The position numbers and the translations under genes are program-made. Positions 6,817-18,701 of a stretch of DNA of 20,648 nt are shown here, in pieces. The notes beneath the pieces were generated by a model. That model had not been told where the DNA came from. It did not search any database and saw nothing but the letters and a program-made list of their open reading frames with translations. Each line of letters starts with the position of its first letter. Position 1 is the first letter of the stretch. Source of the stretch: a virus; IMG/VR virus record IMGVR_UViG_3300043409_000996, positions 1 to 20,648 of that record. One strand, given 5' to 3'.

Positions 6817-6845
6817 AGTATAACACACCATATATGGCATGTCAA
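6817..6845 (-). promoter_or_regulatory. sigma70-type promoter for the two secreted proteins
   Basis: Minus strand: TTGACA (6840-6845), 17-nt spacer, TATACT (6817-6822). The -35 box overlaps the stop codon of the GIY-YIG gene. Confidence 0.85.
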
Positions 6846-7159
6846 AATGTATTCAACGATGGCTCAAACTCGGCAATCAATTCTCTTTCACGCTGATGCG
6901 CTGGCTTACGTCCACGAATCACTTCAAGAACTTCATATTGCCATGCGGCACCAGCCAACTCACGCAACGCATTACACATTGCCCAGTTTTTGTTTTCGCA
7001 CTTCGCACGACTCACATGTTTTTGCCAACGGATTTTAACCGAACGGACGTAGGCTTGTCCCTGTGCAACAGTCAAGCCAACATATGAATCGCCAGTATCT
7101 ACACATGTAACTTTGTACAGTACATGGTTTCTGTCGGAACGTTTCTTTCTCAATGTCAT
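6842..7159 (-). CDS. GIY-YIG family nuclease, 105 aa
   Basis: A minimal GIY-YIG domain: VLYKVTC (13-19) and SYVGLT (26-31) are the GIY and YIG strands, R44 and H48 lie on the following helix (KIRWQKHVSRA), a Glu lies in RERELIAEF (91-98), and N103 closes the domain. All key residue types are present. Stand-alone domains like this are often free-standing homing endonucleases in phages, or short nucleases. The start is the ATG at 7159; the further-upstream GTG lies in the -10 box and cannot be used from this promoter. Only 6 nt separate the -10 box from the ATG, so the mRNA would be leaderless or nearly so. Confidence 0.8.
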   Translation of the reverse strand: MTLRKKRSDRNHVLYKVTCVDTGDSYVGLTVAQGQAYVRSVKIRWQKHVSRAKCENKNWAMCNALRELAGAAWQYEVLEVIRGRKPAHQRERELIAEFEPSLNTF

Positions 7160-7165
7160 ATATAC

Positions 7166-7193
7166 AGTATAACACACCCATGGTAGAAGTCAA
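7166..7193 (-). promoter_or_regulatory. sigma70-type promoter (P6) for the GIY-YIG gene
   Basis: Minus strand: TTGACT (7188-7193), 16-nt spacer, TATACT (7166-7171), with CAAAATAAC next to the -35 box. The start codon follows 6 nt after the -10 box. Confidence 0.85.
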
Positions 7194-7408: not shown

Positions 7409-8251
7409 ATGAAAAAATTATTAGCCACATTATTTTTGATAGTCTCGTCAATTGCATATGCACAATTGCCGACTTCAACAGTACCACTTTCGCCAGATAT
7501 TGCCGCAATTAAAAAGCGCAATGTCTTAATAGTATCAATGACTAAAAAAGATAATCCCCCATTTTTCAGCGGCGATGAAGAAAATATTCGAGGACTTGAT
7601 GTTGAAATTGCACGCCGAATTGGTGTTGTAATTGGAGTTCCCGTACAGTTTAGGCGAGATGCAGAAAGTTTTGCTGAAGTAGTTGAACAAGTTAGAGACG
7701 GCAGAGCAGATATTGCAGTATCTAAATTATCAATTACTGGTCCAAGATTACTTACTGTACGATTCAGCGACCCATATATTAAACTCAAACAAGCAATGAT
7801 TATTAATCGTTTATGGCTAAGTCAAAATGGACAAGGCAAAGAAGTATATGAAGTGATTAGAACATTCAACGGCAAGATATCTTTCATTCGTAATAGCAGT
7901 TATGATACATTTGCAAGAGCAAACTTTCCAAAAGCAGTATATACACCAGAAGATAGTTGGGATAAAATTATCAGCAATGTAACTAGTGGCGCTATTGCGG
8001 CTGGTTATAGAGATGAATTTGAAATTAAGAAAATTTCATTTGAGTTTCCTAACGCCGCAATTACTACAAAGACAGTTACAATATCAGACAGCATAGACAA
8101 TATTGCTGTGGCAGTTAATGTGAATTCTACCCAATTACTTGGCATAGTTAACTATGTTATTAAAAATGAATATAGTAACATTGACACCAAAAAATTAATG
8201 GATCGATACAAGGCTGAGAAAAAACTTGTTGCTCCAACAGTAACAAAATAA
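7409..8251 (+). CDS. Periplasmic solute-binding protein, family 3 (amino-acid type), 280 aa
   Basis: Residues 1-18 are a signal peptide ending AYA before QLP, with no lipobox, so the mature protein is soluble in the periplasm. The rest is the SBP_bac_3 fold: NVLIVSMTKKDNPPF near the N-terminus, IRGLDVEIARRIG (60-72; the family hallmark G-x-D-x-E-I-A), VEQVRDGRADIAVSKLSIT, then R..RFSDPY, and the second lobe from about 130. Such proteins bind polar or acidic amino acids for ABC importers. Here no ABC permease or ATPase follows; a DAACS symporter starts 12 nt downstream. It may hand substrate to the symporter or act as a sensor. No clear ribosome-binding site precedes the ATG. Confidence 0.88.
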   Translation: MKKLLATLFLIVSSIAYAQLPTSTVPLSPDIAAIKKRNVLIVSMTKKDNPPFFSGDEENIRGLDVEIARRIGVVIGVPVQFRRDAESFAEVVEQVRDGRADIAVSKLSITGPRLLTVRFSDPYIKLKQAMIINRLWLSQNGQGKEVYEVIRTFNGKISFIRNSSYDTFARANFPKAVYTPEDSWDKIISNVTSGAIAAGYRDEFEIKKISFEFPNAAITTKTVTISDSIDNIAVAVNVNSTQLLGIVNYVIKNEYSNIDTKKLMDRYKAEKKLVAPTVTK

Positions 8252-8263
8252 TTAGGAAAAATC

Positions 8264-9550
8264 ATGCAATTTAATTTAAAATCATTTCTCTCTAGCCCGT
8301 GGACTATATTGAGTTCTATTATAGTGGGTGTGCTGGCTGGTGTGTACGCACCTGCCTTTAGCATGAACTTTGAAAGCATTGGTGGTATCTATATTAGCTT
8401 ACTTAAAGTGGTTGTAATTCCATTCTTGTTAGCTACAATTTTAGTTGGTGTTATCAGTCTTCTACAAAAAGAAGGTAGCGCAACAATGATACGCAAAATT
8501 ATTATTGGCTTTGTTGCTAGTATGTTTATTGCCGCAGTTATTGGAGTTGGCACAGTTGCATTGACTGGTAGCGAAATGACACCCGCAAAGCAAGCACAAC
8601 TCGGTTCAATTGTTAACGATAAAGAATCTGGTAGTGATCTCAATATCACACTAAAAGAACCTATGCCTGCCGCAGCCCATGTTGACCCAATGCAGATGGC
8701 GCAGAAATTTATTCCAGAAAACATTTTCAATACACTAGCCGCTGGTGAGAGTTTGAAGATTGTTATTTTCTGTTTAATCTTTGGTATTGCACTCGGCAAT
8801 ATTAAAAGCACAGGACAAGAAATCTTAGTTGATATGCTGAAGAGTGTTCAACAAGCAAGTATTAGCATCTTTAAATTTTTAAACTACTTTCTTCCATTTG
8901 CATTATTGGCAATGATTAGTAGTCAAGTAGGCAAAGTTGGTGTTGGTATCTTCTTGACTATGGTTGAGTTTATTATGCAACAAGCAATTGGTGGTTTCTT
9001 AGTTATTGCCGTAGGTACTTTTGTTATTTGGAAACGATCTGGATTAAGTCTGATGACTGTTATTCGTGAAACTAAAGAGACATTGATTGTCGCTGTCAGT
9101 TCACGCAGTTCATTAGCATGTATTCCATATGCACAAGAAGCATTGCATAAGTTGAAATTTGATAGAACAGGAGTTGAATTAACTGTTCCATTAAGTTTCA
9201 CAGTTAATCGTATCGGTAGTATTGTGTATTACGCAATTGCTACTGTATTCATTGCTAACATCTATGGCGCACCAATGGGCTTGACTGGATTAGCTGTTGT
9301 ATTGTTTGGTAGTATCTTAGCAGGACTTGCTAGTGCAGGCACAACAGGTATTCTTACTGTTGCTACTGTAGCAGTTGTTTGTGATTTGTTGAAACTTCCT
9401 AGTGAAGCTGTTTTAATATTGTTGATTGCAGTTGATCCGTTGATGGATATGATTCGCACAGCAAGTCATGTACATGGCAATGTAGCAGTAACCGCATTCG
9501 TATGCGACAAGGAAATAACAGATGGACAAACTCAAAGAGTTACTACTTGA
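8264..9550 (+). CDS. Acidic amino-acid/dicarboxylate symporter, DAACS (GltP/GltPh) family, 428 aa
   Basis: A full-length secondary transporter with about eight membrane helices and two re-entrant hairpins: HP1 with SSRSS (279-283) and HP2 with SAGTTG (357-362). In the last helix D391, D395, R398 and T399 correspond to GltPh D390, D394, R397 and T398, so the substrate amino-group Asp and side-chain carboxylate Arg are kept, predicting Asp/Glu-like cargo. The TM7 motif NMDGT reads NRIGS (315-319), and GltPh N401 and D405 are H402 and N406, so sodium ligands are changed. Good AGGAA ribosome-binding site. The next gene begins within its last 29 nt. Confidence 0.9.
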   Translation: MQFNLKSFLSSPWTILSSIIVGVLAGVYAPAFSMNFESIGGIYISLLKVVVIPFLLATILVGVISLLQKEGSATMIRKIIIGFVASMFIAAVIGVGTVALTGSEMTPAKQAQLGSIVNDKESGSDLNITLKEPMPAAAHVDPMQMAQKFIPENIFNTLAAGESLKIVIFCLIFGIALGNIKSTGQEILVDMLKSVQQASISIFKFLNYFLPFALLAMISSQVGKVGVGIFLTMVEFIMQQAIGGFLVIAVGTFVIWKRSGLSLMTVIRETKETLIVAVSSRSSLACIPYAQEALHKLKFDRTGVELTVPLSFTVNRIGSIVYYAIATVFIANIYGAPMGLTGLAVVLFGSILAGLASAGTTGILTVATVAVVCDLLKLPSEAVLILLIAVDPLMDMIRTASHVHGNVAVTAFVCDKEITDGQTQRVTT

Positions 9551-10127
9551 ACTTTTAAAGTTCATAGGCGAAAGCCCATTTAGACTATTCACAGTTATTC
9601 TACTTTGCTTTTTGGGTTTTGGTGGATGGATAATCTACTCCGAAAAGGATGCCTTTATGACATCCTATCGGGCTCAACAAGCACTACCAAAGATGAATGG
9701 TAAGTATGAAGAGGCTACGAATTTTATAATCAAAAACACGACAGCAGAGATGGTTGCTATTCTTGAAGTAAATACATTAGTAAATACTAGAAAAATAGCA
9801 TATCTATTTACTAGAGGTGCCGGAAGAGACAAAAACCATGACGGAGTTAATGTTGGACTGTTCTCAAAAAATTACGACAACAACAATGATGTAATTGGTT
9901 TAATGTCTGGCAAGATTCCCTGTAGCCCATATCTGAAACCGCAAAGTTTTATTGGATTTATCTATCGTGATTATGGCGTAACCTATATGTGCAGAATCAG
10001 CGTTCCTTCTGAACCTGGTGTGTTTATTGGACAAATCTCTGTTGGATGGAAAGAAACGCCAGAGAATTTGGATGATGTGCAAACCGCAATGCAAATAGCA
10101 TCGGGAATACTATTCAACAAAAAATGA
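9522..10127 (+). CDS. T4 T-like holin paralogue 1 (probable), 201 aa
   Basis: One N-terminal membrane helix (about 21-39, preceded by a short cytoplasmic part) and a large periplasmic domain with two cysteines (C134, C157), as in T4 holin T (218 aa, helix near residues 35-55). The ending YMCRISVP...FIGQISVGW followed by a final helix lines up by eye with T's C-terminus (CPYF...AGTITMYW, then AARIL helix); this comparison is from memory. T forms the membrane lesion that times lysis. The start has AAGGAA 8 nt upstream, confirming the 29-nt overlap with the symporter gene. Overlaps the racemase by 4 nt. Confidence 0.6.
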   Translation: MDKLKELLLELLKFIGESPFRLFTVILLCFLGFGGWIIYSEKDAFMTSYRAQQALPKMNGKYEEATNFIIKNTTAEMVAILEVNTLVNTRKIAYLFTRGAGRDKNHDGVNVGLFSKNYDNNNDVIGLMSGKIPCSPYLKPQSFIGFIYRDYGVTYMCRISVPSEPGVFIGQISVGWKETPENLDDVQTAMQIASGILFNKK

Positions 10128-10822
10128 AAAAATTAGGTGTGCTAGGGGGAATGGGTCCGGCCGCATCGGCTGAATTTATAAATAGATTGATAGCACAAAC
10201 TCCAGCGTCTTGCGATCAAGAACATATTCCATTTGTGCTATGGAGTGATCCTCGTGTGCCTGATCGTAGCACTAGTTTGCGTAATGGGGACAATCTACCG
10301 TTATCATTGCTTCTAGAAGGCATACTGGGATTGAAAAACGCTGGATGTAATTGCATTGTTATACCATGTAATACTGCACATTTCTGGTTTGATGAAATGA
10401 AAAGACATGCATCATGGAATTCAAAAATTATTCATATTGTCGATAGCGTTGCTGATGCATTGCGAGATGTGAAAGTAACAAACTCTACAATAGGAATCAT
10501 CGGAACACAAGCCACAATTGAGTTAGGCTTGTATCAATATATGCTGAATAAATTGGGTTGGAATTGTATCACTCCTGATAAAGAGGAGATGGATACATTA
10601 GTACAACCAGCAATTAATCTAATAAAGGCTAACAATATTGAAGCCGCCCAACCATTGATAATGAATGTTGTGAATAGATTAATTGCTAATGGAGCAAAGG
10701 CAGTTGTATTGGGGTGTACTGAATTACCTCTTGCAGTTAAACAAACTGAAGAGCAAGGAATTCCGTTAATTAATAGTATTGATAGTTTGGTTAAAGCAAC
10801 TCTTCTTTGGAATCGTCAATAA
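10124..10822 (+). CDS. Aspartate/glutamate racemase, 232 aa
   Basis: A complete PLP-independent racemase of the Asp/Glu family. It has GVLGGMGPAAS (5-15), the first catalytic Cys C82 in IPCNTAH, the second C198 in LGCTELPL, and a substrate-binding SD...R segment (41-48). Both cysteines are present, so it should interconvert L- and D-Asp (or Glu) in the cytoplasm. It is nearer in motifs to aspartate racemase (RacD/YgeA-like) than to MurI. Its ATG overlaps the stop of the holin-like gene (ATGA), so it is translationally coupled. It sits between two paralogous holin-like genes. Confidence 0.9.
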   Translation: MKKLGVLGGMGPAASAEFINRLIAQTPASCDQEHIPFVLWSDPRVPDRSTSLRNGDNLPLSLLLEGILGLKNAGCNCIVIPCNTAHFWFDEMKRHASWNSKIIHIVDSVADALRDVKVTNSTIGIIGTQATIELGLYQYMLNKLGWNCITPDKEEMDTLVQPAINLIKANNIEAAQPLIMNVVNRLIANGAKAVVLGCTELPLAVKQTEEQGIPLINSIDSLVKATLLWNRQ

Positions 10823-10870
10823 GCATTTTTGGGTAGTATTTTGTTATGTTAAAAATAACAGGAAACAACC

Positions 10871-11623
10871 ATGAGAACGCCAGTCAAAAAAGCACCAGCA
10901 AAAAAAGTTGCTGTAAAGAAATCTCCAGTCAAAAAAGTTGTCGCTAAGCCGACACCAGTTAAGCGCACCAAAAAACCAACAGCATCTTCTCCCATCGTCA
11001 TTGATGTTAGCAGTACTACTAAATCTGCATCGTCAATGCTAGATAAAGCCATTGATCTAATTAAGTGGGTTGACACACCTTTTAAATTGTTTGAAGTTAT
11101 TCTTCTTGCTAGTGTATTCTTTTTTGGATACTTTGCATGGGACAGTAGAACAGTTATTTTAAATGCTATCACACAATCAAGTCATGTAACAAATCTCAAA
11201 GAAGTTAATCATCTTGTTCCAGTTGCGGAGAGTTTACAAAAAGATTTAGAAGCAACAACTGTAATTGTACACAAAGCATCTCTTAATGTGAATACAAGAA
11301 AAACGATGTTAGCATTTGGTCCGAAGGGAAGAGATAATTCGCTAGATGGATTGAATTCTAGTTTGTTTAGTAAAGATCAATCTAGAAATGCTGGCATCAT
11401 TGGTATGCTAAATGGTGAAGTTGTTTGCGATAAAATAAGTGTGCTTGATAAATCTTCTGAGTGGGAATTTAAACAAGGCGTGACATTTGTTTGCCGTGGT
11501 GGTATTCCTCCTGAGATTGGAGATTTTGATGGATATGTTGCTGTGGGATGGAGAAAAGAGCCTAGTGACATTGCTGTTATTAAGACTAGAATTAATCTAG
11601 CATCTTCTGAAATGTCACAATGA
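10871..11623 (+). CDS. T4 T-like holin paralogue 2 with an H1-like basic N-terminus, 250 aa
   Basis: The C-terminal 180 residues are related to the 201-aa protein: shared NVNTRK, GRD...LDGLN...LFSKD, IIGMLNGE, VTFVCRGGIP and VAVGWRKEP, and the same Cys pair (C186, C208). One membrane helix at about 72-90. Before it lies a Lys/Ala/Pro/Val-repeat tail (residues 2-38, PVKKAPAKK-type) like eukaryotic H1 or bacterial AlgP/HctB tails; in T's topology this would face the cytoplasm. CAGGAAAC precedes the ATG. A 48-nt gap separates it from the racemase. Holin assignment is by architecture and recalled similarity to T. Confidence 0.6.
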   Translation: MRTPVKKAPAKKVAVKKSPVKKVVAKPTPVKRTKKPTASSPIVIDVSSTTKSASSMLDKAIDLIKWVDTPFKLFEVILLASVFFFGYFAWDSRTVILNAITQSSHVTNLKEVNHLVPVAESLQKDLEATTVIVHKASLNVNTRKTMLAFGPKGRDNSLDGLNSSLFSKDQSRNAGIIGMLNGEVVCDKISVLDKSSEWEFKQGVTFVCRGGIPPEIGDFDGYVAVGWRKEPSDIAVIKTRINLASSEMSQ

Positions 11624-11901
11624 GATGGATTGTGCTATTCGTAAGTATGTTTGTGTTGGTCGGATCGACAGCACAATCGCCAGCATCATGTAATCTCGGC
11701 GAGTTTAAAACTATTGCGCTGACAACGCATCATCCGGCGGAGCGCAACGAAAAAGTAATTTTGTGGTTAAAACAAAACGGTTCTCAATGCGATAAAGAAC
11801 AAGTCACAAAGATTTACAATAGTTTATCCTATCTACTAGGAACATCAGATAACGGTGAAGTTCGTGCTGTGACATATGAATTATATCGAAACGCAAAATA
11901 A
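11620..11901 (+). CDS. Secreted 93-aa protein with two cysteines; possible antiholin-like partner
   Basis: Residues 1-18 are a signal peptide or signal-anchor (MRWIVLFVSMFVLVGSTA). The mature part has two cysteines (C24, C57) and mostly helical content (HHPAERNEKVILWLKQNG, QVTKIYNSLSYLLG). It overlaps the T-like holin gene by 4 nt (ATGA), so the two are made together. T4's RI antiholin is also a small (97-aa) secreted protein that binds the periplasmic domain of T. Size, location and gene order fit, but I see no sequence match to RI. It could equally be another periplasmic lysis or virion protein. Confidence 0.65.
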   Translation: MRWIVLFVSMFVLVGSTAQSPASCNLGEFKTIALTTHHPAERNEKVILWLKQNGSQCDKEQVTKIYNSLSYLLGTSDNGEVRAVTYELYRNAK

Positions 11902-12135
11902 ATGGACGCCGTTCAATGGTTCCCAATAGTACAGCCAAGCTATGCAAATGTTGATGGCATACTAGCGGATGTACATGCTAGAAAAAATGAAGAAAAGTGG
12001 GAAGAATACAATAAACAACTAATTGAAAAAATACATCTTAGAGATTATTTGTATGATTTGTATTTAAAAAGAGCGCACGAAAAACAAATACGCATGGAAA
12101 TATTCAATGCGAATTCAATTGATGTTTATGTCTAA
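11902..12135 (+). CDS. 77-aa helical protein, T4-like conserved, unknown
   Basis: Begins on the base after the stop of the 93-aa gene with no ribosome-binding site, so it depends on coupling. No signal peptide. MDAVQWFPIVQPSYANVDGI is followed by a long charged helix (ARKNEEKWEEYNKQLIEKIHLRDYLYDLYLKRA by composition, about 27-60) and FNANSIDVYV. I recall similar short proteins in T4-like cyanophages, without a function. It is the last gene of the plus-strand unit and ends 2 nt from the end of a convergent gene. Confidence 0.65.
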   Translation: MDAVQWFPIVQPSYANVDGILADVHARKNEEKWEEYNKQLIEKIHLRDYLYDLYLKRAHEKQIRMEIFNANSIDVYV

Positions 12136-12137
12136 CT

Positions 12138-12428
12138 TTATTTTGGCGCCGGTTTTCTTCTCTTAGGCGCAGTAACTGCTTTAGCAGGTTGTTGTCTTTG
12201 TCTATTGGGTTTAGCAATAGCCGCAGGAGGATTCTTAGTCCATGCTTGTTCTTTTGCTGGCGCAGGTGCCGCAATTGACGCCTCAGTTCCTGCTGGTATT
12301 ACTTGAACCGTAGCAGTTATTGACTCTGTAGTTTCTTTAATATTTTTAACTGCAACATCTACCGCAGTCAAAGGAGCCTCTACTGCTGGTTTGCTACCCG
12401 TGAAAAATTCTTTAATTTTATTAAACAT
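12138..12428 (-). CDS. 96-aa low-complexity protein with a basic Pro/Lys tail
   Basis: Starts with a short amphipathic MFNKIKEFFTGSKP segment, continues with an Ala/Thr/Val-rich middle (about 17-58) and ends with a Pro/Ala/Lys/Arg tail (about 70-96, with RQRQQPAK and PKRRKPAPK). No signal peptide or full membrane helix. It has a good AAGGCG ribosome-binding site. It lies 13 nt behind the endolysin gene and ends 2 nt from a convergent stop codon. It is probably disordered, and the tail could bind nucleic acid or the inner membrane surface. Function unknown. Confidence 0.6.
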   Translation of the reverse strand: MFNKIKEFFTGSKPAVEAPLTAVDVAVKNIKETTESITATVQVIPAGTEASIAAPAPAKEQAWTKNPPAAIAKPNRQRQQPAKAVTAPKRRKPAPK

Positions 12429-12441
12429 GATTATCGCCTTT

Positions 12442-13062
12442 TTAAGTTAAAATTTCAATCGCATGATTGTAATGATTGATTCTGTCTTCTAAACCAATGT
12501 ATCCACCATTGATTCGTTTTGTCATTGTCTTAATGTCTCCAATATCTGCTAGTTCATTTAGTCTAGCGGCAGACCAGAACCAACAAGCAGAATGAATAGC
12601 ATACTCTGTTTCAAGTAACAAATCAGGATTCTCAACTAGCACATTGCTCTCAAACAATGATTGCGAACACTTGGTGTAGTTGTTCTTTCCTGTAATCTGT
12701 ACAATGCCTCTACCACGAAAGTACCAACCTTCTCCAGATGCTTCATCTCCATTACCCATACGATTAGCGTACACACGATTAGCAATCATCTGTGGTTTGC
12801 GTTCGTATGGTTTTGCTTGAGCCTCGGTCGGAAAGTATTTCTTGAAAGTGCCAACTAGACCTTTTGCAGAGTAATTCAAATTCTCTTGCATAAGAGTAAA
12901 CCCACCAGATTCATGTCCACATTGTGCCATGAATGCCGCAACTCTATGCGGTGTGTCTATGTCGTATTCTGGCAATATATTCAGTAAATTATTATACCAT
13001 TCGTCAAAGTTTTTTACTTTAGGTATCAACTGTCTTACTGCATCTTCCGTAAAAAAGTCCAT
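12442..13062 (-). CDS. GH19 chitinase-like endolysin, 206 aa
   Basis: A single GH19 catalytic domain: HESGGF with the acid Glu E51, second Glu E60 in LMQENLNYS, GWYFRGRGIVQITGKNNY (112-129) and the closing RINGGYIGLEDR. Phage members cleave peptidoglycan rather than chitin. There is no signal peptide or anchor, so it should accumulate in the cytoplasm and need a holin to reach the wall; the T-like holin genes encoded convergently nearby fit. Start ATG at 13062 has AGGAG at good spacing and follows the late-type promoter at 13084-13097. Confidence 0.9.
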   Translation of the reverse strand: MDFFTEDAVRQLIPKVKNFDEWYNNLLNILPEYDIDTPHRVAAFMAQCGHESGGFTLMQENLNYSAKGLVGTFKKYFPTEAQAKPYERKPQMIANRVYANRMGNGDEASGEGWYFRGRGIVQITGKNNYTKCSQSLFESNVLVENPDLLLETEYAIHSACWFWSAARLNELADIGDIKTMTKRINGGYIGLEDRINHYNHAIEILT

Positions 13063-16196: not shown

Positions 16197-16490
16197 TTAT
16201 TGTATTATCATTCTAATTAATCCAACACTATCAATCGTAGTCAACAGTAAATAGTTAGCCAACATGCCAAAAGATTTCCTAGTCCAAGAAGCCCAAGCAT
16301 ACAAAGCACAGCCAGTGATCCAAACAGGATAAAGAGCAAGAAGCGGAGGGTTTGGGACTGTGATCGCCATAGTAATACTGCAACCAATACTAACAGCCCA
16401 AGCAAGCAACTCAATAAAAAAGCGAATCCTGTTAGACTTAAAGTCATCTTTTATCCATTCTACAGTAGGGCGAAACAAATCAATAATCAT
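16197..16490 (-). CDS. T4-like conserved small membrane protein, 97 aa
   Basis: A short cytoplasmic N-terminus (MIIDLFRPTVEWIKDDFKSN) and about three hydrophobic segments (FFIELLAWAVSIGCSITMAI, LLALYPVWITGCALYAWAS, SFGMLANYLLLTTIDSVGLI). Similar DLFRPTVEW...NPPLLALYP membrane proteins occur in T4-like cyanophages (from memory). I start it at the ATG at 16490, 4 nt past the upstream stop; a TTG at 16532 would make it 14 residues longer with a 38-nt overlap. Function unknown. Confidence 0.75.
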   Translation of the reverse strand: MIIDLFRPTVEWIKDDFKSNRIRFFIELLAWAVSIGCSITMAITVPNPPLLALYPVWITGCALYAWASWTRKSFGMLANYLLLTTIDSVGLIRMIIQ

Positions 16491-16494
16491 AAAA

Positions 16495-17313
16495 CTAGTC
16501 CAAGTTAAATAAATCGGGATGTGTCTTTGCAAAATACAATCTTAATAAATTCCAATGTTCAAAAAGTTCTTGTGATTGTCGTTCAACAATCATGCGCTTG
16601 ATGCCATACAATGATTCTAATACTTTACTAAAATCATTAATCTGATTTTGATACACGCTATAATCGTATGGCTGACTATAGACTTTATATTCTTTCATTT
16701 GAAGAAACGTAGAAAATAATCGTTCAACAATAAACGGAAACATATTCAGATTAGGGTCTCTGCTATAGTTTGCGCTACCATGATAAATTTCTGCATCTTC
16801 ACCAGTTAATGCTTCAAGATGTTTTTTAATATCTTTTAAGAATGCAATGTATTCTATCCAAAATGCTTTTGTCGCAACAAAGTAACTGCAATAGCAAGTT
16901 GAATCTGTCATTACATTATCAAGTGCGTTAGTGTCATAGCCACCAGCAGTAAATGCAGAACGAACAACTTGTTTAATTCCTGGATGAAAATAATCACCCT
17001 GTTCCCACACGTTCGCAGTTAGTGCATTCTGTACTCTAGCATGATTGAAAATATAAACATCATATCCGTCATTGTTATCAATAGCATCTTTGATTGTGTT
17101 AGCTTCATAACGCATCTTGCTTTGCCAGCGAGGACCAAACACACCCCATGCGTCTAAGTCATCTGCAAAGCCTTCATCAATAATACGATTAAATGAATGA
17201 AACTCACGCAACTCGGGCTTCTCATTTGAAGTATTATCAAATGGTGTTAGTAGAGAATCAACTTGTGCTATTTGATTCTGTTCAAAACAAATCTGAAAAA
17301 TCTTATAGTTCAA
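16495..17313 (-). CDS. Glycosyltransferase-like protein (DUF4422-like), 272 aa
   Basis: A soluble protein whose second half, CYCSYFVATKAFWIEYIAFL (about 149-168), NYSRD and FPFIVERLFSTFLQMKEYKVY, resembles the late part of GT-A sugar transferases of the DUF4422 type (Y-F-hydrophobic-K-F-W-x-x-Y and E-R-L). The first half (FNHARVQN, GVFGPRW, YDVYIFNHAR) fits a nucleotide-sugar domain only loosely, and no DxD is evident. It starts at a TTG that overlaps the upstream stop (TTGA), with GAGGG upstream. It may modify host or virion sugars; weak assignment. Confidence 0.5.
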   Translation of the reverse strand: MNYKIFQICFEQNQIAQVDSLLTPFDNTSNEKPELREFHSFNRIIDEGFADDLDAWGVFGPRWQSKMRYEANTIKDAIDNNDGYDVYIFNHARVQNALTANVWEQGDYFHPGIKQVVRSAFTAGGYDTNALDNVMTDSTCYCSYFVATKAFWIEYIAFLKDIKKHLEALTGEDAEIYHGSANYSRDPNLNMFPFIVERLFSTFLQMKEYKVYSQPYDYSVYQNQINDFSKVLESLYGIKRMIVERQSQELFEHWNLLRLYFAKTHPDLFNLD

Positions 17314-18020
17314 TCTGATACCCTCGCTCCGTTCGGTGCAATGTTTCCCTCTACACCAAGTTTACCAATGTTCTCAATCAGTATAGGATCAAGATGATGA
17401 AACAATAAATGTTCAATGTCAATATATCCCTTTGCGTTCAATCGATCTGTCATGTGATTAAACATGTCAGTATAAAGGTCTCTAACGTATGGAAGCAAGA
17501 ATGCATCAAAACTCCACAAGCGACTCATGTACTGTAGCGATACGCCGCCCGTAATTCCTGGTTTGAATTGACTTGTGAATGGACCACGAACAATAATCTT
17601 ATCTGTGGCTTGCATGTGTTTATCATAGTTGAAATCATCATTCAATGTATAACGCCCACTCATCTTAAATATACGTTTATACTTTTCACGCCAACCATCT
17701 TCCATAGCTTTATCAAAGAATGAACCATACATAATAATTTCAATCATGTTCTTAACAATGTCGTGATTGGGTACTTGTTGAAGCTGTTGAATATTCTCTG
17801 CATCAGCAAAACTATAAAATCTATCAATGTATTGCGATAGTATATCACGTTCTGTTTTTGTGATATCTTGATAGCCACCATCTAGTACAATGATATCTGC
17901 ATCACACTTGTTTCTAATAGACTTGCAGGTTTCAATAGTCTGTTCAAGTCTTGTCTGAGTATCATACACGCCATGCTTTGCATGAATTGCTGACGATACT
18001 AAAAATACACCATCACTCAT
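17310..18020 (-). CDS. Glycosyltransferase-like protein, 236 aa
   Basis: N-terminal GVFLVSSAIHAKHGVYDTQTRLEQTIETCKSI then DADIIVLDGGYQD gives a Rossmann-like start. FKMSGRYTLNDDFN (about 118-131) recalls the F-K-I-S-G-R-Y-x-L...F motif of a family of WbaX/WavE-like or viral sugar transferases (from memory). LLFHHLDP follows near the C-terminus. No clear DxD. Its ATG overlaps the stop of the ClpP-like gene, and the next glycosyltransferase-like gene overlaps its own stop, so the three are coupled. Likely role, by inference: sugar modification of virion, host wall or DNA. Confidence 0.5.
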   Translation of the reverse strand: MSDGVFLVSSAIHAKHGVYDTQTRLEQTIETCKSIRNKCDADIIVLDGGYQDITKTERDILSQYIDRFYSFADAENIQQLQQVPNHDIVKNMIEIIMYGSFFDKAMEDGWREKYKRIFKMSGRYTLNDDFNYDKHMQATDKIIVRGPFTSQFKPGITGGVSLQYMSRLWSFDAFLLPYVRDLYTDMFNHMTDRLNAKGYIDIEHLLFHHLDPILIENIGKLGVEGNIAPNGARVSD

Positions 18021-18675
18021 TTGTCTTCCTCGCTTTTTTAACAGGCGCCTTCTTGGGCGCAGGTTTGGCTCTAGGCTTTTTAGTCGCAGATTTTTTGGGC
18101 GTAGATGCCTTAATTATCTCTTCACTACGTTTGTTTAGACGTTTGAATACTTCATCTGGATCCATCCAAATGTCTTTATTCTCTAACATGGATTTGATTT
18201 CATCGTCTGTTAAGAATCCAGAATAGACACTTCGCATAAATTTATCTGACCACTTGCGTTCATACATGATGTTATCATACATTTCACCACCCTTGCCGAT
18301 AGTGCCACCAGAGTAATTGTGAAACATGAACATGGAGTTTTCTGATATTTCAAAACCATCCGCGGCTAAGAATATCATTGTTGCGGCTGACATACATGCA
18401 CCTTCTACTGATGCAATAATGTTTGCTTGAGACTCTGCCATAACACGCATCAACTGCACAGCAGTAAATAAATTACCGCCAGGAGAATTGATGTGAATTT
18501 TAATTATGTCAGTTTCATTTGCGTTTCTGATAATTTCAAACCACTCTACGTATTCGTTAGGCGCATTTAATTCGCCACACAAATATAGTGTGTATAATTG
18601 TCCAAGTATTTTTGGTTGTCTAGGTTTTTTGTCATCATCTAGACCAAACAAAGAACTAAGTTTTTCTTCTTCCAT
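18013..18675 (-). CDS. ClpP-like serine protease with a Lys/Ala/Pro tail, 220 aa
   Basis: A ClpP/crotonase-fold protease: INSPGG (62-67), nucleophile S96 in GACMSAATM, H119 in MFHNYSGG and D168 in KDIWMDPDEVF; these match the canonical Ser-His-Asp of ClpP. There is no ClpA/X-type ATPase in the window. In phages such proteins act as capsid maturation proteases or as ClpP-like housekeepers. After about residue 189 there is a tail of Lys, Ala, Pro and Arg (PKKSATKKPRAKPAPKK type), unusual for ClpP. Start at the ATG at 18675; GTG 9 nt earlier also possible. Own promoter at 18702-18730. Confidence 0.85.
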   Translation of the reverse strand: MEEEKLSSLFGLDDDKKPRQPKILGQLYTLYLCGELNAPNEYVEWFEIIRNANETDIIKIHINSPGGNLFTAVQLMRVMAESQANIIASVEGACMSAATMIFLAADGFEISENSMFMFHNYSGGTIGKGGEMYDNIMYERKWSDKFMRSVYSGFLTDDEIKSMLENKDIWMDPDEVFKRLNKRSEEIIKASTPKKSATKKPRAKPAPKKAPVKKARKTNE

Positions 18676-18701
18676 AATTATCACTTTCTATTATAATATA
18701 G

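Follow-up and report, generated by a model that had tools for sequence, protein, structure and literature searches.

Gene layout of the locus and the relation of A to B

The window, i.e. the whole stretch of DNA analysed (20,648 bases of its record), belongs to a virus of bacteria and is probably a fragment. The genes considered here, including those of the two predicted T-like holins A and B, are arranged as follows.

6842-7177, minus strand: GIY-YIG nuclease-like gene (Pfam GIY-YIG, E 0.0014; a weak match, below the Pfam cut-off)
7409-8251, plus strand: SBP, secreted family-3 solute-binding protein (PF00497, 5e-17)
8264-9550, plus strand: SDF, glutamate/aspartate symporter family protein (PF00375, 1.6e-65), with NRIGS in place of NMDGT
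9522-10127, plus strand: A, predicted T-like holin, 201 aa (phrog_31287; AlphaFold2 model closest to T4 T)
10124-10822, plus strand: Asp/Glu-type, CuyB-like racemase, 232 aa (PF01177, 1.9e-43)
10871-11623, plus strand: B, predicted T-like holin, 250 aa (phrog_31287; paralogue of A)
11620-11901, plus strand: p93, small helical protein, secreted, in which two Cys are invariant; candidate antiholin of the RI type, paired with B
11902-12135, plus strand: p77, cytoplasmic protein, following p93 in large-phage loci
12138-12428, minus strand: p96, Lys/Pro-rich small protein
12442-13062, minus strand: GH19-type endolysin (phrog_181 endolysin, 7e-79; PF00182, 1.8e-08)

The open reading frames of A, the racemase, and B lie where the earlier note on this DNA had placed them. 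The start of A (9522) falls within the SDF gene, which ends at 9550, and the start of the racemase gene overlaps the stop of A by 4 bp. The same gene order is found in an independent contig (L010) with about 90% nucleotide identity to the window, and the arrangement is therefore not an assembly quirk.

A and B align with 29% identity over 191 residues (BLASTP, E 5e-26), the alignment including the motifs that the earlier note had picked out as common to the two, and both match phrog_31287, a PHROG without assigned function (6.8e-16 for A and 3.1e-20 for B); judged by these matches, they are real paralogues. Each has a single hydrophobic segment near the N-terminus (residues 20-38 of A and 71-89 of B), as had been claimed, preceded in both by a predicted amphipathic stretch. 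The Cys pair noticed before (C134/C157 of A, corresponding to C186/C208 of B) proved to be invariant across 75 family members, as are R90, P162, and G170. Prediction from sequence and model gives the phrog_31287 family a layout in which an amphipathic helix in the cytoplasm is followed by one membrane helix and then by a GAF-like periplasmic domain. All parts of the cassettes described below are under purifying selection, with dN/dS of 0.02-0.26 where measurable.

The cytoplasmic N-terminal tail of B is Lys/Ala/Pro-rich. Such histone H1-like tails occur in three places in the window, namely the N-terminal part of B (10871-11020), p96 (12138-12428), and the C-terminal part of a ClpP-like protease (18013-18684). 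A membrane protein of 111 aa is encoded at 16197-16532 on the minus strand, with a weak, below-cut-off match to YwiC-like proteins.

Two exchangeable cassettes at one site

The BLAST comparison of all loci, together with counts of neighbouring genes, resolved two conserved units, SBP-SDF-A-racemase and B-p93-p77. In two relatives (L020 and L021) the GIY-YIG gene leads straight to B, at a distance of 0.2 kb as against 3.8 kb, with the whole SBP-SDF-A-racemase block missing between the same flanks, whereas in another (L084) the racemase leads straight to p96 and B-p93-p77 is missing, again between the same flanks; L010, like the window, carries both. The GIY-YIG nuclease-like gene forms the left border of the exchange site across the A-only, B-only, and double alleles, and p96 forms the right border. 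A and B are thus parts of two separate cassettes that can replace each other at one site, of which relatives hold either and the window both. The flanks of the A unit form 24 clusters upstream and 18 downstream, which indicates that the unit is transferred as a whole.

The earlier note had offered a duplication around an inserted gene as one explanation of the two copies, and such a history, in which a single t gene was recently duplicated and the racemase inserted between the copies, would account for adjacent paralogues with a racemase in between. The 29% identity of A and B, however, speaks against it, and in the tree A lies within its own clade (support 95/100) and the window B among the B genes of other phages, the two clades being deep and separate. 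Moreover, the empty-site alleles show block exchange, and the racemase gene directly follows A in 42 of 56 loci, as a member of the A operon rather than an insertion. Recent duplication is contradicted by the tree and the empty-site alleles, and we regard this history as highly improbable.

Most large records have one phrog_31287 family member; in G004, G005, and G015 there are two, well separated from each other. The contig IMGVR_UViG_3300027749_002876 (524,565 bases; L066 and L096) contains two A cassettes at widely spaced positions (about 280 kb and 87 kb).

Likeness to T4 holin T and the predicted role in lysis

The assignment of A and B to the layout of T4 holin T, made by eye in the earlier note, stood as regards layout, fold, and a lysis role of the family. 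The profile PF11031 (T holin) had no match above cut-off in A, B, their relatives, or the records searched, the T4 control scoring 1.3e-119. Because PF11031 fails to match, A and B, differing in this respect from the T-like holins of the T4 and T5 types, are termed T-like and not proven T orthologues. The profile-profile comparison with T that the same note had proposed as a check gave a colinear match of the family alignment to the T alignment (174 columns; probability 77%); the full score was 41.3, as against at most 36.0 for 60 shuffles in which the transmembrane part was kept, and the periplasmic part alone scored 24.9, the highest value from 100 shuffles being 20.3, a modest excess. Searches of PDB sequences with A and B returned nothing meaningful.

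For the fold comparisons with T, all made with A, an AlphaFold2 model was built from 69 sequences (pLDDT 87, pTM 0.72). The periplasmic domain of T4 T (6px4_B) was the best match among 350,542 PDB chains (Foldseek E 2.8e-5; TM 0.70 by target) and headed the VIA list (Z 13.3; 133 of 141 residues; rmsd 3.3), and among the matches in BFVD are proteins that carry the names T holin and class III holin. The structural comparison proposed earlier hence places T first in the PDB, with generic GAF domains tied within 1 Z of it, and the fold is not exclusive to T; our literature searches, of partial coverage, found no report of a GAF reading of holin T. A and B share with T4 T the amphipathic N-terminal helix, which in T precedes the membrane helix and is essential (PMC12162936), as well as the one transmembrane helix, the GAF-like periplasmic domain, a similar length, and a predicted role in lysis. 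On the other hand, the disulphide pair C175-C207 of T4 T is apparently not conserved as such: of the invariant family pair C134/C157, only C157 aligns near C175 of T, and the partner Cys differs; and A and B, unlike T4 T, are linked to SBP-SDF-racemase or to p93. The predicted layout of A and B and the modelled fold of A are T-like, and both proteins are predicted holins.

In Edwardsiella phages GF-2 and Edno5, a phrog_31287 family member occupies the second place in the order Q, relative, lysozyme, and Rz, and Vibrio phage IKEMa6-1 has a similar lysis cassette, with the relative directly before the lysozyme gene and an Rz-like protein after it. In all three the relative is the only transmembrane protein before the lysozyme, which has no membrane segment, and PF11031, PF11351, and phrog_1544 (T, 3TM, and TeaA-family proteins) were not found in the three records. 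By position, the family presumably works as the holin in at least these phages. In addition, S13 and Ci1 (Straboviridae) have a member of the family and no PF11031, the GH19 gene adjoins B in L053, and the order in L035 is B, p93, 3TM holin, and GH19. A and B would be expected to make holes in the membrane.

Another reading is that A and B do not form the pore but regulate, as T-like antiholins or sensors, a 3TM holin whose gene lies elsewhere. GTA_holin_3TM was over cut-off in 14 of 22 records with A or B, and lies near B in L030, L035, and L053. L051 and L055 have a TeaA-family protein (phrog_1544) near B together with a muramidase-like endolysin. In phages with GTA_holin_3TM, A or B could therefore be a regulator. 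As a general account, however, the regulator reading has against it the holin slot held by the family in GF-2, Edno5, and IKEMa6-1, the lack of a detectable 3TM holin in the window, itself an incomplete 20.6 kb fragment, and the lysis-locus proteins of ICP1, whose ORFs have no similarity to A, B, or p93; we consider it quite unlikely. The TeaA/ArrA lysis inhibition of ICP1 (PMC7182436) is comparable in being a phage lysis-timing locus and in the TeaA-family protein near B in L051 and L055. ArrA, tried as a relative of A and B, was dropped because of the dissimilarity of the lysis-locus ORFs.

A candidate controller of B is p93. In each of the 37 loci, its gene overlaps the stop of B by 4 bp, and the protein has a signal-peptide-like start, two invariant Cys, and four predicted helices. 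In layout and gene order, p93 looks like a secreted antiholin of the RI type: the likeness to T4 RI comprises a length of about 95 aa, a hydrophobic, signal-like N-terminus, two invariant Cys, helical character, and secretion, and two reports (PMC8385771; PMC11413866) describe RI as carrying a cleavable signal peptide. The two differ in that T4 rI is not next to t, and in fold searches of the PDB (Foldseek and VIA) RI was not among the matches listed for p93, which were weak helical ones. In the proposed mechanism, p93 probably holds back the triggering of B by binding to it in the periplasm. Other small genes occupy comparable places. For three of the eight A genes that are without SDF, a 98-aa secreted protein overlaps A by 4 bp; the two-Cys protein of this length (phrog_25396) at L061:4129-4425 and L082:4142-4438, overlapping the A stop where SBP-SDF-racemase is absent, is a possible alternative periplasmic partner of A. 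A phrog_32327-like family of 155-257 aa with a C-terminal membrane helix (L049:6658-7125, L051:6590-7081, and L011:7247-8020) is encoded next to or soon after B.

The SBP-SDF-racemase module and its relatives in type VI secretion clusters

A scan with SDF, made separately from that with A, recovered 80 loci, many of them on contigs shared with the A scan and some on contigs that are near-copies of one another. SBP lies directly upstream of SDF in 73 of 73 phage loci, a T-like gene directly downstream in all 69 loci with enough sequence, and a racemase within 4 kb in 58. The reverse linkage is looser, SBP-SDF being missing for 8 of 58 A genes, and A thus does not need SBP-SDF. No report of a phage SBP-SDF-holin operon was found in our literature searches, whose coverage was partial. 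The phage SDF has NRIGS, invariant in the aligned phage copies, in place of the canonical cation/substrate motif NMDGT, and Asn in place of the last Asp of the Na+ site, while D..D..R of TM8 (the substrate site) is kept; the functional meaning of the NMDGT and Na+-site positions is assumed to be that in GltPh. SBP retains the conserved Arg and Asp at the positions that are usually taken to bind the ligand. The racemase keeps both catalytic-Cys motifs (PCNTAH and GCTE), and its score for NF052483 (cysteate racemase CuyB; 220.6 bits against a cut-off of 190) predicts a CuyB-type enzyme.

These data can be read in terms of auxiliary metabolism, SBP, SDF, and the racemase importing and interconverting acidic amino acids for phage synthesis, with A an ordinary late T-like holin that is co-expressed without regulatory coupling. 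All three proteins are of metabolic families, and the retained racemase motifs, the TM8 substrate site, and the SBP ligand residues also speak for this reading. Yet a holin-free cassette would then be expected sometimes, and none was found among the 69 loci; the cation-site motif is gone from the aligned phage SDF copies; no ABC permease or ATPase that could serve SBP lies nearby in the window; and no SDF carrier is known to need an SBP. We judge this account somewhat unlikely, and coupling is favoured over plain metabolism because of the strict SBP-SDF-T-like linkage.

Among 84,980 genomes scanned, one close bacterial SBP-SDF pair (63 and 66% identity) was found, in a Burkholderiales MAG in whose genome no A gene was detected. 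SDF matches with E below 1e-50 occur in 9 of 299 genomes of the family of this MAG, with 32-36% identity except for the close copy; SBP stands alongside in these nine, and a racemase and a second SDF (SDF2) in most. In the four loci read at length (L144-L146 and L148), these SDFs lie between VgrG/DUF4280 genes and core genes of the type VI secretion system (T6SS), and in L147 and L149 they are also beside T6SS genes. Most of this T6SS-linked SDF subfamily has LLRxGP where the canonical motif is NMDGT. The gene set of T6SS-b of Paraburkholderia phymatum (Bphy_5989-5992, encoding SBP, SDF, racemase, and SDF2; PMC8356804), for which dicarboxylate sensing was raised there as a possible role of the symporters, comprises the same families in the same order as the phage module, and no bacterial relatives closer than T6SS-linked SDFs of this type were found. 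The two differ in that T6SS-b has no T-like gene between SDF and the racemase, where the phages have A, and in that SDF2 and the T6SS genes are missing from the phage cassette, which in the window consists of SBP, SDF, A, and the racemase only. The phage racemase shares 40% identity with a Salmonella racemase and 32-37% with those of T6SS-b; it is not clearly closer to the latter than to other Asp racemases, and it may or may not have been captured from T6SS-b along with SBP-SDF. Long branches make rooting of the SDF tree unsafe. Judged by family and gene order, the module of the A cassette has a relative within type VI secretion clusters of Burkholderiales.

Taken as a whole, the locus may be explained by two alternative T4-T-like holins, each at the centre of a lysis-control cassette and paired with a periplasmic controller of its own, a tentative account in which our doubt slightly outweighs our belief. 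For the A cassette, SBP and SDF would act on an acidic amino acid (aspartate, glutamate, or cysteate), either detecting it or moving it, and thereby set the time at which A triggers, and the racemase would adjust the ligand pool. Bursting timed by amino acids is hinted at rather than proven by these data. The fuller proposal, that SBP and a transport-altered SDF, of common stock with T6SS accessories, sense acidic amino acids as a sign of nutrient state or of lysed neighbours and control the T-like holin, an input other than superinfecting DNA, which T4 RI is believed to sense, appears to us unlikely. If these readings are true, T-like holins would form a wide and modular family in which phages exchange the periplasmic controller, and lysis would have become linked in phages to an amino-acid binding/transport-like module that is also present in type VI secretion clusters. 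This would supply a second, testable lysis-timing input besides superinfection and a clue to the role of the unexplained symporter-racemase genes in T6SS clusters.

Two further arrangements were seen in the bacterial loci: SBP-SDF-racemase-SDF2 lies within T6SS clusters in L144-L149 of Burkholderiales, and an MscS channel with a cyclic-nucleotide-binding domain adjoins SBP-SDF-SDF2 in L130 and L149.
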